Shown here piece by piece: positions 3,351 to 37,620 of a stretch of DNA of 64,000 bases. Position numbers and translations under genes: made by a program. The DNA comes from a virus: positions 35,746-99,745 of IMG/VR virus record IMGVR_UViG_3300032240_002285, one strand, 5' to 3'. Under the pieces are notes generated by a model, which saw only the letters and a program-made list of their open reading frames with translations, was not told the DNA's origin and ran no database searches. Position 1 is the stretch's first letter, and each line of letters opens with the position of its first letter.

Positions 3351-5201
3351 TTACGAGTTTAGTAACTTATCCAATTCTTTTGAAATTTCTCCTAAAGATT
3401 CTTGCCCTTGACCCAAATCTAAGAACGTTGACCCTCTGAAAATGTTGTTTTCCAATAGGATATTCATGTTAGCGGTTTTGGATTCTGGAGTTATTTCTGC
3501 TTCAGGTCCTGCTGGAGTTTCAGGAGCTGAAGGAGTTGCTTCTTCAGGTGTTGCAGCAGTTTCAAACTCAGATGCTCCACCACTTGCTGGAGGTGCACCA
3601 ATTTCTGTTTCACTACCCGCACTAGGTACTGCTGGAGTACCTGAAGCTCCGTTACCGTATAATTTATCAATGTTGTCAAATAAACCTGTTTTAGTGATAA
3701 CTGTTGGAGTGGCTTTAAGTTCTTCTCCGACTGCTCTTTCAATTCTTTGTTGTTGTAAATCAAGTCTGATTTCTTCATCAGAGAATCCAAAAATATGTTT
3801 CTTAGCCCATGTTGAAGAAGTTGGTTGTATACCATTTCCTGGGTCAGATACTAAGTCTTTATATAATAATACTTTTTCTTTCCAAACATCAATTTTTAAT
3901 AAATCAGCTTGTGTAGATGGATTTGTAAGGCCTAATGTAAAGTTTTGTAATTCATCCTCAAATCCAAGTAAAAATAAGTGAACAATTGCAATTTTATTCA
4001 ATTCTGCAATCATACTTTTTTGAATTCTATTAATAGTACGAGCAAAACGAATATCTTGTAATGATAAATTTTTACCATCACCAACAACTTCTTCAAAACC
4101 TAAGAATGCTTTAGGGACACGAAGCGCTGTTAATAATTTCTTTTGGATATATTCAATATCAGCAATCTCAGAAAGGTTAGTCGCACCAGGTAAAGTTGTA
4201 ATTGGGTCTGGTGCTGCTGGGTCTCTAACAGGGATAAAGTAATCTTGGTCAACCGCCATTTGGTTGAATCTCATATCTACGTTACCTGTTTTACTATCAA
4301 CAACTTGTTCTCTTTTGAATTTATTAGCAACACGGTTTACGTATGCCTCAACATCATCGTCATTCATATTACCTACGAATACCTTGAACATTCTTCTTTC
4401 AGGTGCTCTTGATGTACGATAAATTAACATTGCATCTTCAGATAGTAATAATTGTTTCCAAATTCTTCGGGCCTTTTCTAACATAGAAGTACCGTAAGGA
4501 AGTTTTCTATCGTCACCTAATAATCTAAAGTGAGCAATTTCCCATGATTGGAACTCCATGTTTTTGTTTTTCCAAGTAAAGTGTAATGCTTTCTTGTCTT
4601 TGTCAGGTTCAGCAGTGATATCTACCGAAATTTTTTGTGTTACACCAACTTCGTGGCGTTCAATTTCAATAGTTGGTAGTTGTTGACATCCTACAACACC
4701 TTTTTCTGGGTCTAATTTTAAATAAACAAAATTGTCACCATACTTACAAGTGTTTCTTGTCCACATTGGTAAGTTGGTGTTAATATCTAAATTATTGTTG
4801 AATAAATCGGCCAACACTGATTTAATTCTTTTTGACTCAGAATAGATTTGAAGAATAAATCCATCTTCATTTGTTGTTGTGGATTCTTCAGAATAGATAT
4901 CTAACGCTGCGGAAATCTCAGGAGTATACTCCATAGATTCATAATCATACTGCGAAGACAATCTTGATGGTTCATAATAAATTGCTTGAGAGTATAAGTT
5001 GTTTTCAACCTTAGACCATTGATTAGATAAATAAAACGATTGTTGAGCTTGTAATTTTTCTTTCTCATATTCATCACGATTTGTTGTACGCAAAAGTTCT
5101 TTCTTATCAAACTTAAAAGTTGGATAATCTTGCTTTAGTAAAGAATTCGGGCCGAACGTTTTAGAAAGCCTCTGCCATACCGTTAAATTATTATCATTCA
5201 T
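3351..5201 (-). CDS. portal vertex protein, T4 gp20-like
   Basis: At 616 aa the protein is somewhat longer than T4 gp20. The core (about residues 1-500) shows the portal pattern: YESMEYTPEISAALDIYSEES near the N-terminus, RMFKVFVGNM and KRAPERR-like segments, YFIPVRDPAAPDPITTLPGA, then IADIEYIQKKLLTALRVPKAFLGFEE. It forms the dodecameric ring at the head vertex through which DNA is packaged. A low-complexity Ala/Pro/Glu/Thr tail (about 515-585) precedes a short helical end and is unusual for the family. The gene follows the large terminase on the same strand, as in T4. A class B motif lies 28 nt upstream. Confidence 0.9.
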   Translation of the reverse strand: MNDNNLTVWQRLSKTFGPNSLLKQDYPTFKFDKKELLRTTNRDEYEKEKLQAQQSFYLSNQWSKVENNLYSQAIYYEPSRLSSQYDYESMEYTPEISAALDIYSEESTTTNEDGFILQIYSESKRIKSVLADLFNNNLDINTNLPMWTRNTCKYGDNFVYLKLDPEKGVVGCQQLPTIEIERHEVGVTQKISVDITAEPDKDKKALHFTWKNKNMEFQSWEIAHFRLLGDDRKLPYGTSMLEKARRIWKQLLLSEDAMLIYRTSRAPERRMFKVFVGNMNDDDVEAYVNRVANKFKREQVVDSKTGNVDMRFNQMAVDQDYFIPVRDPAAPDPITTLPGATNLSEIADIEYIQKKLLTALRVPKAFLGFEEVVGDGKNLSLQDIRFARTINRIQKSMIAELNKIAIVHLFLLGFEDELQNFTLGLTNPSTQADLLKIDVWKEKVLLYKDLVSDPGNGIQPTSSTWAKKHIFGFSDEEIRLDLQQQRIERAVGEELKATPTVITKTGLFDNIDKLYGNGASGTPAVPSAGSETEIGAPPASGGASEFETAATPEEATPSAPETPAGPEAEITPESKTANMNILLENNIFRGSTFLDLGQGQESLGEISKELDKLLNS

Positions 5202-28478: not shown

Positions 28479-28637
28479 CTGTAGTGGAAGGAATCGAACC
28501 TCCAAGGGGTAATTAGGTAAAGGACAATAGTGCTTGCAAGCTGGTGGTCTACCCCGATATCCTTACTTTATTTCATAATCCCCGCCCCCGAGACAGGAGG
28601 GTGCGTCTGCCAAGCGTACGCATTTCGCCACACTACA
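28479..28637 (-). tRNA. interrupted or insertion-bearing Leu-type tRNA-like RNA (about 158 nt)
   Basis: Perfect 7-bp acceptor TGTAGTG/CACTACA, a Leu-type D arm (TGGCGAAAT ... TGGCAGACGCA) and a proper T arm (GGAGGTTCGATTCCTTC) lie about twice as far apart as normal. The D loop carries an extra palindrome GCGTACGC. About 75 nt of extra sequence follow a CCCTC-CTGTCTC-GGGGG hairpin, and include GGGGTA/TACCCC and palindrome GCTTGCAAGC. The anticodon cannot be assigned (GTC if the hairpin loop is used). It is too short for a typical group I intron. Confidence 0.6.
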
Positions 28638-28914: not shown

Positions 28915-28985
28915 CCCCACTTCACCAGCTTAACGGACTGGCTGCCATATGGGAGTGGGGGTTTCCTGTTATTTCAGGACTCCGT
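28915..28985. ncRNA. structured spacer between tRNAs
   Basis: CCCCACT (28915-28921) pairs with AGTGGGG (28954-28960); ACGGA (28933-28937) pairs with TCCGT (28981-28985), interleaved with the first; a TCCTG/CAGGA hairpin sits between. No gene covers it. The 5-bp helix could be chance. Confidence 0.35.
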
Positions 28986-29068
28986 GGTCAGGACAGGATT
29001 CGAACCTGTATGAGTTTCTCACCTCTACCCCTGGACGGGGCTGCGTCTCTCCATTTCGCCACCTGACT
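28985..29068 (-). tRNA. class II tRNA, Leu-like body, anticodon uncertain
   Basis: Acceptor GTCAGG/CCTGAC extended by an A1-C72 mismatch, D arm TGGCGAAATGG..GACGCA as in Leu tRNAs, a long variable arm (GTGAG/CTCAT) and T arm ACAGG-TTCGAAT-CCTGT. The anticodon arm GCCCCGTCCAGGGGT leaves a 5-nt loop with a full stem, or a 7-nt loop CGTCCAG with a G at position 33. No standard Leu anticodon is present. Confidence 0.6.
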
Positions 29069-34363: not shown

Positions 34364-36031
34364 ATGAGGACATTAGGATTTTCTGTTGGCCACGATAAGG
34401 GCGCGGTAATTATTGAGGATGGTAAAGTGGTGGTGGGTATCACGCAAGAAAGATTAAGCAGAATAAAACATGATGGAGCTTATAGTGGAGGTAAAATACC
34501 TTTTGAATCTATAAACTATTGTTTAAATGCTTTAGGATTAACCTTAGAAGATATTGATTCATATGTCTATAGCACAACAGAAATAGTTGATAATGTTGAA
34601 AAACAATTCAAAGAATATACTAACAAACATATTAACTTAAAATTCATTCCTCACCATTTAGCACACGCATATTCATCATTTTTCAGTTCTGGACTTGATG
34701 AAGCAGCAGTAATTGTTGCTGATGCGTCGGGAAGTATTTTATCTCACTTAAATAAATTACCAATTTGGTATCCAAATGTTACAAAAGAAGGTTTAGACCC
34801 TGAAGAGGATTGGACGGAAGCAATTTCAATTTATCATTTTACAAGAGATAAATTTAATGAAGTTTATAAAAAATGGATAAAATATCCAATACCACTAGAA
34901 ACTGATGATGATGTATCTTTAGGTACATTATATTCTGAAGGTTCACTACAATTAGTTTATGAACCAACAAATCATACATGGACTGCAGGTAAACTTATGG
35001 GATTAGCATCTTATGGCGACCCTGTAATTGTTGAAGAGGCTCCTGAATTTATTAAGGAAATTGATGGGGATATTTTTATTCCAAATCGTAGAATTTATCC
35101 AAAAGTTGATTATACATCCGATTTCTTTTCAAAGGCATGTGTGGCAGGAATTTATCAACGAGAACAGGAAAGGGCTTCATTAATTTTGGCTAAAATAGCT
35201 AAAAATTTATCAAAATCTAAAAATGTTTGTGTTGCTGGTGGGTCATTTTTAAATTGCAACTCCAACGAACAAATATTGAAATCGGAATTATTTGATAATT
35301 GTTATTTCTTACCTCCATCAGACGATAGTGGAATCCCGTTAGGTTGTGCTTGGTATGCTTACCAAGAATTATTAGATATTACATCAGATGATATGTTATC
35401 ACCTTACTTAGGTAAAACATACTCAAGAAATGAAATTGTGGAAGCAATAAATAAATTCCCTAATTTAATTTTTAATGAAATAAATGATGAGGTAGAACTT
35501 TACGACTCAGTTTCATATTGGTTATCCCAAAATAGAGTTATAGGATGGTTTCAAGGAGGGTCAGAGATTGGCCCAAGAGCTTTAGGTAATCGTTCAATTT
35601 TGGCATCTCCTATTAAATCATGGATAACTCCTCACATCAACTCAGATATTAAAAAAAGAGAATGGTATAGGCCTTTTGCTCCAGCAGTTTTATTTGAACA
35701 TCAAAATGAAATTTTTGAATCTGATTTATATTCTCCTTATATGTTAGTAACGACAACAGTTAAAGAAAAATGGAGAAATAAAATTCCTGCAGTTACCCAC
35801 ATTGACAATTCGGCCAGACATCAATCTGTAACAGAAACAAGTAATAATAGATTTTATAATTTAATTACTAAATTTTATGAAAAAACAGGAGTTCCTGTTC
35901 TATTGAATACAAGTTTCAATGGACCTAAAGAACCTATAGTAGAATCTCCTACCGACGCAATTAATACTTTTATTGAGACAGGTTTGGACTTTTTAGTTTT
36001 AAATAACTTTGTAATATCTAAAAAATTATAA
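34364..36031 (+). CDS. NodU/CmcH-family carbamoyltransferase 1, 555 aa
   Basis: N-terminal ASKHA-like fold with FSVGHDKGAVIIEDGKVV and FIPHHLAHAYSSFFSSG, then VADASGS; C-terminal part with GWFQGGSEIGPRALGNRSIL and VLLNTSFNGPKEPIVESP. Family members transfer carbamoyl from carbamoyl phosphate to hydroxyls on sugars or nucleoside-like acceptors via carbamoyl adenylate. The stop overlaps the ATG of the second copy (TAATG at 36029-36033). An insert near 180-260 differs from copy 2. Confidence 0.92.
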   Translation: MRTLGFSVGHDKGAVIIEDGKVVVGITQERLSRIKHDGAYSGGKIPFESINYCLNALGLTLEDIDSYVYSTTEIVDNVEKQFKEYTNKHINLKFIPHHLAHAYSSFFSSGLDEAAVIVADASGSILSHLNKLPIWYPNVTKEGLDPEEDWTEAISIYHFTRDKFNEVYKKWIKYPIPLETDDDVSLGTLYSEGSLQLVYEPTNHTWTAGKLMGLASYGDPVIVEEAPEFIKEIDGDIFIPNRRIYPKVDYTSDFFSKACVAGIYQREQERASLILAKIAKNLSKSKNVCVAGGSFLNCNSNEQILKSELFDNCYFLPPSDDSGIPLGCAWYAYQELLDITSDDMLSPYLGKTYSRNEIVEAINKFPNLIFNEINDEVELYDSVSYWLSQNRVIGWFQGGSEIGPRALGNRSILASPIKSWITPHINSDIKKREWYRPFAPAVLFEHQNEIFESDLYSPYMLVTTTVKEKWRNKIPAVTHIDNSARHQSVTETSNNRFYNLITKFYEKTGVPVLLNTSFNGPKEPIVESPTDAINTFIETGLDFLVLNNFVISKKL

Positions 36032-37620
36032 TGAGTTCAATTTATGGATTTTTTGGAGGCTCTCATAGCCCTTCTACTTCACTTGTTATTGATGGTGAAA
36101 TAATTGCTTGTGTTGAAGAAGAAAGATTAACCAGAATTAAGGCGGGTGACAATTACGATATTGTTGCCGAGTTTTCGTCTCAAGCAGTTGAAAACTTTAC
36201 GGGTCTTAATATATTAGAAGCCGACCATAAAGTTTTTGTTGAGCCTGTTACAGACAATTTTGCGAAAACATTGACACATAATAAGTATTCAAGAATAAGT
36301 CATCACGATTCACATTGTTATAGTTCATATTATACAAGTGGCATGGAAGGTAAGGTATTATCAATATCTTATGATGGTGGTGGTGATTTTTCAGTCATGA
36401 AAATATATCTTTGTGAAGATGGAAAAATGACGTTACTAAAAGATTACAAATTAGCACAAACTGCCAGTCTTTCACATTTATGGGGTTTCAGTACCTCAGG
36501 TATTATGGGATATGATGAAAAAGCCGAAGGAATTTGGAAAATGTGTAAAGATGAAGGTAAACTTATGGGAATGGCACCTGAAGGTCATTATGATAAAGAC
36601 ATCTACAAGATGTTGAACTCAATAATTAATTATAAAGACCTACTTTTTTACCCTTCAGGAACATCTTCAAAAACAAAATTTGTTGTTGATTCAATGTTTA
36701 AAAAGGGTTACTTTGAAACTCAGACTAAAAGAGAAATATATTGTTATAATTTACAAAAATTAACAGAAGATTTAATGTTAAATTTTTTAAATGACCTACA
36801 TAAATTATATCCTGAATACAATAAATTATGTTTTTCAGGTGGTTTATTTGCAAATGTTAAACTGAATCAGAAAATAAATGAGCTTGATTGGGTTGAAGAA
36901 ATTTTTGTGTTTCCCGCAATGGGAGATGAGGGATTGTCTTTAGGAGGTTGTATACGTAAATCTGTAGAGTTGGGAGAATGGTTAAAACCAAAAAAATTAA
37001 AAAATGTTTATTTTGGTTTAAGCTATACTGATAATCAAATTTTAGAATGTTCAAAATTTTATGATTTCAAAGTAAAAAATTATGACTCTAAAGAAACCGC
37101 AATTGACCTTTATGACGGTAAAATTATTGGTTGGTTTAGAGATGGGTTTGAATATGGGCCTAGGGCTTTAGGTGCAAGAAGTATTTTAGCTAGACCAACA
37201 GATGTTAATGCACATTTTGAGCTCAATAAACGACTAAATCGTAACGATGTAATGCCATTTGCACCAATAATTTTAGATGAATTATTTGAAGAGGTATTTG
37301 AATATTCAAAATCAAAATACTCAGCTGAATTTATGACAATTTGTTACCCAACAAAAGAAAAATGGATTAATAAAATACCTGCAGTAATTCAAAAGTCGGA
37401 CAAAACAGCGAGACCACAAGTTGTTAATAAAGAAAAATTACCCGAATTTTGGAAAATTTTAAATGAATATTATCAAATTTCAGGTATACCCTTATTGTTA
37501 AACACCTCTTTTAATTCTCACAATGAACCAATAATTGATATTCCAATTCAAGCGTTTGACAAATTAAAGGATGGTATTATTGATAAATTAGTTATTGAAA
37601 ATTATGTATTTTACAATTAA
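36031..37620 (+). CDS. NodU/CmcH-family carbamoyltransferase 2, 529 aa
   Basis: Same fold as its neighbour: FFGGSHSPSTSLVIDGEIIACVEEER, ISHHDSHCYSSYYTSG, SYDGGGDFS, then GWFRDGFEYGPRALGARSIL and LLLNTSFNSHNEPIID. The conserved histidines (HHDSH) and the YGPRALG loop are intact, so it should be active. Two divergent copies in tandem suggest a heteromer or two sequential carbamoylations. Confidence 0.92.
   Translation: MSSIYGFFGGSHSPSTSLVIDGEIIACVEEERLTRIKAGDNYDIVAEFSSQAVENFTGLNILEADHKVFVEPVTDNFAKTLTHNKYSRISHHDSHCYSSYYTSGMEGKVLSISYDGGGDFSVMKIYLCEDGKMTLLKDYKLAQTASLSHLWGFSTSGIMGYDEKAEGIWKMCKDEGKLMGMAPEGHYDKDIYKMLNSIINYKDLLFYPSGTSSKTKFVVDSMFKKGYFETQTKREIYCYNLQKLTEDLMLNFLNDLHKLYPEYNKLCFSGGLFANVKLNQKINELDWVEEIFVFPAMGDEGLSLGGCIRKSVELGEWLKPKKLKNVYFGLSYTDNQILECSKFYDFKVKNYDSKETAIDLYDGKIIGWFRDGFEYGPRALGARSILARPTDVNAHFELNKRLNRNDVMPFAPIILDELFEEVFEYSKSKYSAEFMTICYPTKEKWINKIPAVIQKSDKTARPQVVNKEKLPEFWKILNEYYQISGIPLLLNTSFNSHNEPIIDIPIQAFDKLKDGIIDKLVIENYVFYN

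Follow-up and report, generated by a model that had tools for sequence, protein, structure and literature searches.

The described RNA nearest in kind to the family reported here is tRNAOther of Bacillus cereus, a pseudo-tRNA that does no work in translation, is charged poorly with lysine in vitro and affects physiology when deleted (PMC3399842). The likeness is that of a bacterial tRNA-like RNA outside translation, a role that the new family would share; tRNAOther has a Trp anticodon and occurs in some Bacilli, whereas the new family has aspartate determinants, a long variable arm, linkage to an AsnC-type gene and copies in phages. Allo-tRNAs and selC-like tRNAs resemble it in being unusual, genome-mined RNAs with long variable arms and, in some cases, GUC anticodons, but theirs are 8/4 or 9/3 structures with serine identity (PMC7609411), whereas the new family combines a 7/5 layout with a Leu-type D arm and aspartate determinants.

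Two ordinary tRNAs also bear comparison. Aspartate identity depends on five strong, conserved determinants (G73, G34, U35, C36 and C38), and in bacterial tRNA-Asp the pairs G1-C72 and G2-C71 are strictly conserved, the former contributing to placement of the 3' end (PMC9976931; the C1-C72 and G2-C72 printed in one sentence of that paper were taken as slips). The new family has G34, U35, C36, C38, G73 and G2-C71 in common with bacterial tRNA-Asp but differs by U1-A72, by U37 in place of a purine, by a U33 that is not kept, by its long variable arm and by its Leu-type D arm. With tRNA-Leu it shares that D arm and a class II layout (long variable arm), and the body of the RNA probably derives from tRNA-Leu; it nonetheless has G73 rather than A73, U1-A72 rather than the usual G1-C72, no Leu anticodon, and GGCAGAC where most ordinary Leu tRNAs here have GGTAGAC.

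Here, we describe a predicted, conserved cloverleaf RNA found by comparative analysis in many phages and in the chromosomes of one Bacteroidota family. The starting point was a stretch of 64,000 nucleotides (the window; positions 35,746 to 99,745 of IMG/VR virus record IMGVR_UViG_3300032240_002285). The record totals 99,745 bases and includes a T4-type portal gene, and the window contains a tRNA cluster and a tmRNA (ARAGORN). The features of the RNA in the window are as follows.

28479 to 28637, minus strand: whole tRNA-like RNA including discriminator G73 (28479), from sequence reading and the family of relatives
28631 to 28637, minus strand: acceptor 5' strand TGTAGTG (U1, G2), pairing with 28480-28486
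28603 to 28628, minus strand: Leu-type D arm GCG...GGCAGACGC, closed by GCG...CGC with GCGTACGC inside the loop; a D-stem pair covaries UA/CG
28614 to 28621, minus strand: 8-nt palindrome GCGTACGC in the D loop, found in a subset of members
28585 to 28601, minus strand: anticodon arm CCCTC-CTGTCTC-GGGGG, with compensatory changes in 4 of 5 stem pairs
28590 to 28596, minus strand: anticodon loop CUGUCUC; loop-blind searches give Y-N-GUC-N-C
28504 to 28584, minus strand: variable arm of 81 nt, with compensatory pairs in the RNAalifold consensus and the same module in a host copy (L135:4340-4482)
28487 to 28503, minus strand: T arm GGAGG-UUCGAUU-CCUUC, with compensatory changes in 4 of 5 T-stem pairs
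28480 to 28486, minus strand: acceptor 3' strand CACTACA (A72), followed by G73 and C74, from sequence reading

The cloverleaf occupies 158 nt (28637-28480, minus strand), with G73 just beyond at 28479, and the gene does not encode CCA (its 3' end is G73, C74). The acceptor 5' strand is followed by TG and then by the D arm. In the loop, G34, U35 and C36 lie at 28594-28592, U37 at 28591 and C38 at 28590, so that this copy has both U33 and U37. The variable arm consists of a GGGG/CCCC basal stem, an internal loop, a bulged GUAAGGAUA/UGUCCUUUAC stem, a GG-GUAGA-CC hairpin and the palindrome GCUUGCAAGC. The initial annotation of this stretch had described a perfect acceptor stem, a Leu-type D arm, a T arm and an 8-nt D-loop palindrome, all of which are present on the minus strand at 28637-28480. 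The large extra stretch that it placed between the anticodon region and the T arm is the 81-nt variable region, and where it saw no Leu anticodon the loop carries GUC. Identity as tRNA-Leu was rejected on that loop, on the missing Leu anticodon and on G73 in all members.

Other features were seen in the window. The phage tmRNA (22338-22746) has a predicted tag ending in GVTVA, compared with the usual LAA-type end, and two adjacent carbamoyltransferase genes of one PHROG family (Nol-like) lie at 34364-37620. A second class of odd tRNA-like RNAs is represented at 28984-29068 (minus strand; labelled tRNA-Gly(TCC) by ARAGORN) and in three fetched loci (L037 at 4534-4677, 4977 and 11993; L050 at 737-905; L102 at 12281). 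The acceptor AGTCAGG, the Leu-type D arm and the T arm (ACAGG...CCTGT) are its constant parts, and most copies have A73; the middle (about 40-100 nt, often lacking a clear anticodon arm) is unrelated in every copy, and the class resembles a tRNA scaffold whose cargo changes.

Standard tools gave little on the RNA at 28479-28637. ARAGORN did not report it in the window, and the Rfam search proposed in the initial annotation gave no match for the window copy at the gathering score; one host copy passed the Rfam gathering threshold as a generic tRNA (35.6 bits). Folded alone, the window sequence was not unusually stable (z = +0.98), so that energy alone proves nothing and comparison is needed.

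Comparison with related phages, also proposed at the outset, showed that the RNA belongs to a family. A search for an exact 19-base match gave a single relative, located in a different phage context, eight stretches matched the core of the variable arm, and one pattern search fixed the anticodon loop. A loop-blind viral pattern, which fixed nt 1-4 and placed no constraint on the anticodon loop or on any position 3' of the D arm, returned 92 stretches. The matches examined go on to show the same kind of loop, a T arm and a complementary acceptor strand, except for one chance match (L092) and a few truncated at contig ends. Fetched loci totaled 102 with duplicates merged, and a parser that demanded acceptor and T-stem pairing yielded at least 64 distinct viral members; these are 83-161 nt long, and their variable regions span 15-92 nt. 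Only one relative is named (L033, whose phage-like contig was binned with a Flavobacterium genome); searches of named phage and plasmid collections returned chance or T-arm matches only. No description of the RNA was found in the literature searched; the family is previously undescribed, has no Rfam entry and is mostly missed by ARAGORN.

Structure was derived with RNAalifold from 26 long members, without any tRNA information being given. The consensus is a cloverleaf with an elaborate variable arm, with 36 pairs, 23 of them with compensatory changes, which fall in acceptor pairs 4-6 and in the helices of the D, anticodon, T and variable arms; the branch geometry of the family is set by an acceptor of 7 bp and a T stem of 5 bp, both of which covary. 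Consensus cells were paired in 98.4% of cases, compared with at most 59% in slid controls, a comparison biased in favor of the structure because it was derived from the same alignment. Cells changed on both sides numbered 153, compared with 37 in shuffles, and none of 500 shuffles was as high on any measure; the shuffles preserve column make-up and not relatedness, which limits the independence of members. The variable arm forms a structured domain of its own, which probably binds another partner. Inserts in the D loop are of ten kinds (nine after flank trimming), all at the same place, and all but one hold a perfect palindrome of 8-12 nt, the exception being an inverted repeat whose halves are 5 nt apart. 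The palindrome is an accessory that varies between members and is lacking in many; the tip of the variable arm is often a perfect palindrome too, and both could serve in dimerization or be the trace of a DNA-level process.

These comparisons bear on the explanations that the initial annotation had offered. It had suggested a small tRNA intron, a chimera of two tRNAs or a tRNA-like regulatory RNA. Because members occur at every length and the arm covaries, the extra nucleotides are an arm of the RNA and not an intron or group I remnant, and removal of the insert from the window RNA, as for a tRNA with an intron, left a remainder with no Leu anticodon. The chimera was discarded when no second acceptor, D or T arm was found within the insert, and degradation of the gene is ruled out by compensatory changes across the family. 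The third suggestion fits best: the RNA is tRNA-like, and its conservation, together with the AsnC-type neighbor of the host copies described below, makes a regulatory role plausible.

Conservation within the viral set is concentrated on the aspartate determinants. The loop consensus of the family is Y-N-GUC-N-C, with G34 in 61 of 64 members (A34 in 3), U35 and C36 in all 64, C38 in 62 (A38 in two) and G73 in all 64, so that the window copy and nearly all members carry all five. G2-C71 is likewise present in 64/64; U1-A72, found in all 64 viral and all 34 host sequences, takes the place of the G1-C72 of bacterial tRNA-Asp. Nucleotides 1-4 were not fixed by the variable-arm-core and fixed-loop searches, and the 24 members from those searches agree. 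The short class I variable loop is replaced by a region of 81 nt in the window and 15-92 nt in the family. Positions that serve decoding are treated differently: position 33 is U in 46 members, G in 7, C in 6 and A in 5 (n = 64), and position 37 is U in 60, A in 2 and C in 2, that is, a purine in 2/64. Among 285 ordinary tRNAs in these viral loci, 283 have U33 and 283 have a purine at position 37. In these alignments, then, the strong AspRS determinants and G2-C71 are kept, and U33 and purine-37 are not; from this pattern we infer recognition by AspRS and absence from decoding. Ordinary tRNA-Asp (loop CUGUCAC) coexists with the RNA in several viral contigs (e.g., L017, L032, L033, L034, L066 and L070) and in all nine hosts tested by pattern search.

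Of 396 genomes sampled from the phylum of Flavobacterium MAG G001, 7 have chromosomal copies, arranged as tandem pairs, and these seven carriers belong to one Bacteroidota family. Within that family, the loop-blind pattern found chromosomal copies in 90 of 151 genomes, with up to seven in each, and the loop was T[T/C]GUC[T/C/G]C at every place listed. Host copies are self-standing genes with ordinary flanks (e.g., methionine sulfoxide reductase and ribosome recycling factor). Some single host genomes have five near-identical copies in a tandem array (L128 4984-6600 and L129 4506-5220), an arrangement which suggests that dosage matters; the spacing in five-copy arrays is 150 bp or ~370 bp. The host form has an anticodon stem of CCTCC/GGTGG with a constant U.U pair, and this U29.U41 mismatch was kept in all 34 parsed host copies. 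Its variable arm has a GGGAAA/CUAACC internal loop, usually below a GNRA-type tip. One host type has a long arm with GGGTTGACCAC in common with the phage form, which ties the phage and host sets together.

In Escherichia coli, asnA is divergent from asnC. AsnC responds to asparagine and regulates both its own gene and asnA, whose product turns Asp into Asn (PMC4482635). The host RNA gene has a similar setting, divergent from a Lrp/AsnC-family gene; the likeness to E. coli is the AsnC regulator gene, and the difference is that the divergent gene here is an aspartate-marked tRNA-like RNA and not a synthetase. By manual tally, 45 of 50 host genomes inspected had one RNA copy within ~250 bp of the AsnC-type gene; of the other five, two had one within 0.8 kb and three had none, and in at least two of those three the copy lies close to the end of a contig. 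Additional host copies elsewhere in the genome have no AsnC-type neighbor. The nearest solved structure to the regulator is E. coli AsnC (2cg4; E = 3.8e-39, next best 5.5e-22), and the best NCBIfam model is AsnC, although the score is under its cutoff (181 versus 227 bits). A strong Bacteroidota promoter (TTTG-N17-23-TAnnTTTG), most often ending 29-36 nt ahead of the RNA, precedes 65 of 88 host copies, compared with 0.1 expected; the 88 distinct upstream regions are not all independent, several coming from copies present in more than one fetched locus. No AsnC gene was found beside the phage copies, and the RNA adjoined none of 30 AsnC relatives in Flavobacteriaceae, which means that the AsnC link might not apply to the host of the window phage.

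The reading that we prefer, and to which we give about an even chance, is that the RNA would be a stable, non-coding and non-decoding mimic of aspartate tRNA acting on AspRS or on the supply of Asp-tRNA. The plainest competitor, an odd but decoding tRNA-Asp on a Leu-like body that inserts aspartate at GAU/GAC, has in its favor the GUC anticodon, C38 and G73, D and T arms that look competent, and the U33 of the window copy and most host copies. Since the window copy has U33, the case for a non-decoding RNA rests on its relatives, among which position 33 is C, A or G in 18/64 viral members from several groups and C in many host copies; a purine almost never stands at 37, the variable arm is extreme and conserved, and an ordinary tRNA-Asp is already present, so that we think a decoding role unlikely. 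Missense insertion of serine at Asp codons, in the manner of allo-tRNAs, starts from the fact that SerRS also uses a long arm and G73, which counts against AspRS as the sole candidate, and GUC-anticodon allo-tRNAs exist (PMC7609411). The 7/5 branch (not 8/4 or 9/3) and the Leu-type D arm fit it poorly, and an enzyme that ignores the anticodon leaves the constant GUC and C38 unexplained; serylation thus appears very improbable.

Two further explanations turn on the loop. A decoy or resistant stand-in for tRNA-Asp, set against an anticodon nuclease or other defense enzyme acting on anticodon loops, would account for the loop being the most constant part and mimicking tRNA-Asp except at position 37, and phage tRNAs altered in the anticodon loop resist such nucleases (PMC11455837; see also eLife 85183). 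The host chromosomal copies sit with an AsnC-type gene and not a defense gene, and a loop decoy has no need of constant G73 and U1-A72, so the idea is unlikely. The exposed, nearly constant loop would also suit a tRNA-like guide or antisense RNA, in which the GUCUC loop and the variable arm (with its conserved unpaired region and palindromes) pair with or bind a target and the aspartate look is incidental. The constant bases, however, fall exactly on the Asp determinants 34-36, 38 and 73, and positions 33 and 37 vary inside the same loop, which is unexpected for target pairing; we consider this quite unlikely. The AspRS mimic has difficulties of its own in the A34 of three viral members and A38 of two, in a U1-A72 pair that may weaken aspartylation, and in a long variable arm that AspRS must tolerate.

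Under the AspRS-mimic reading, AspRS would recognize the RNA and either charge it slowly or be held by it as by a competitor, and the RNA would take no part in decoding. In the hosts, the divergent AsnC-type regulator would set the level of the RNA according to asparagine or aspartate supply, and the RNA would link amino-acid status to the availability of AspRS or Asp-tRNA. Phages would carry a copy of their own in the tRNA cluster, free of AsnC control, and use it to set that state during infection. A search of 14 virus records, which may be fragments, for a phage-encoded partner found no synthetase of the class II Asp/Asn/Lys type. The full scheme, in which an AsnC-type regulator in one Bacteroidota family controls an Asp-tRNA mimic, the mimic binds AspRS and tunes the supply of Asp-tRNA, and phages seize that control with enlarged versions of it, is put forward tentatively, as possible but doubtful as a whole.

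The widespread RNA family keeps the marks read by a synthetase and drops those needed for decoding, and its host form lies beside an amino-acid regulator. These features make possible a cheap test of synthetase control by an RNA mimic in bacteria and phages, and the family offers one candidate function, beyond codon supply, for the odd RNAs of phage tRNA clusters.
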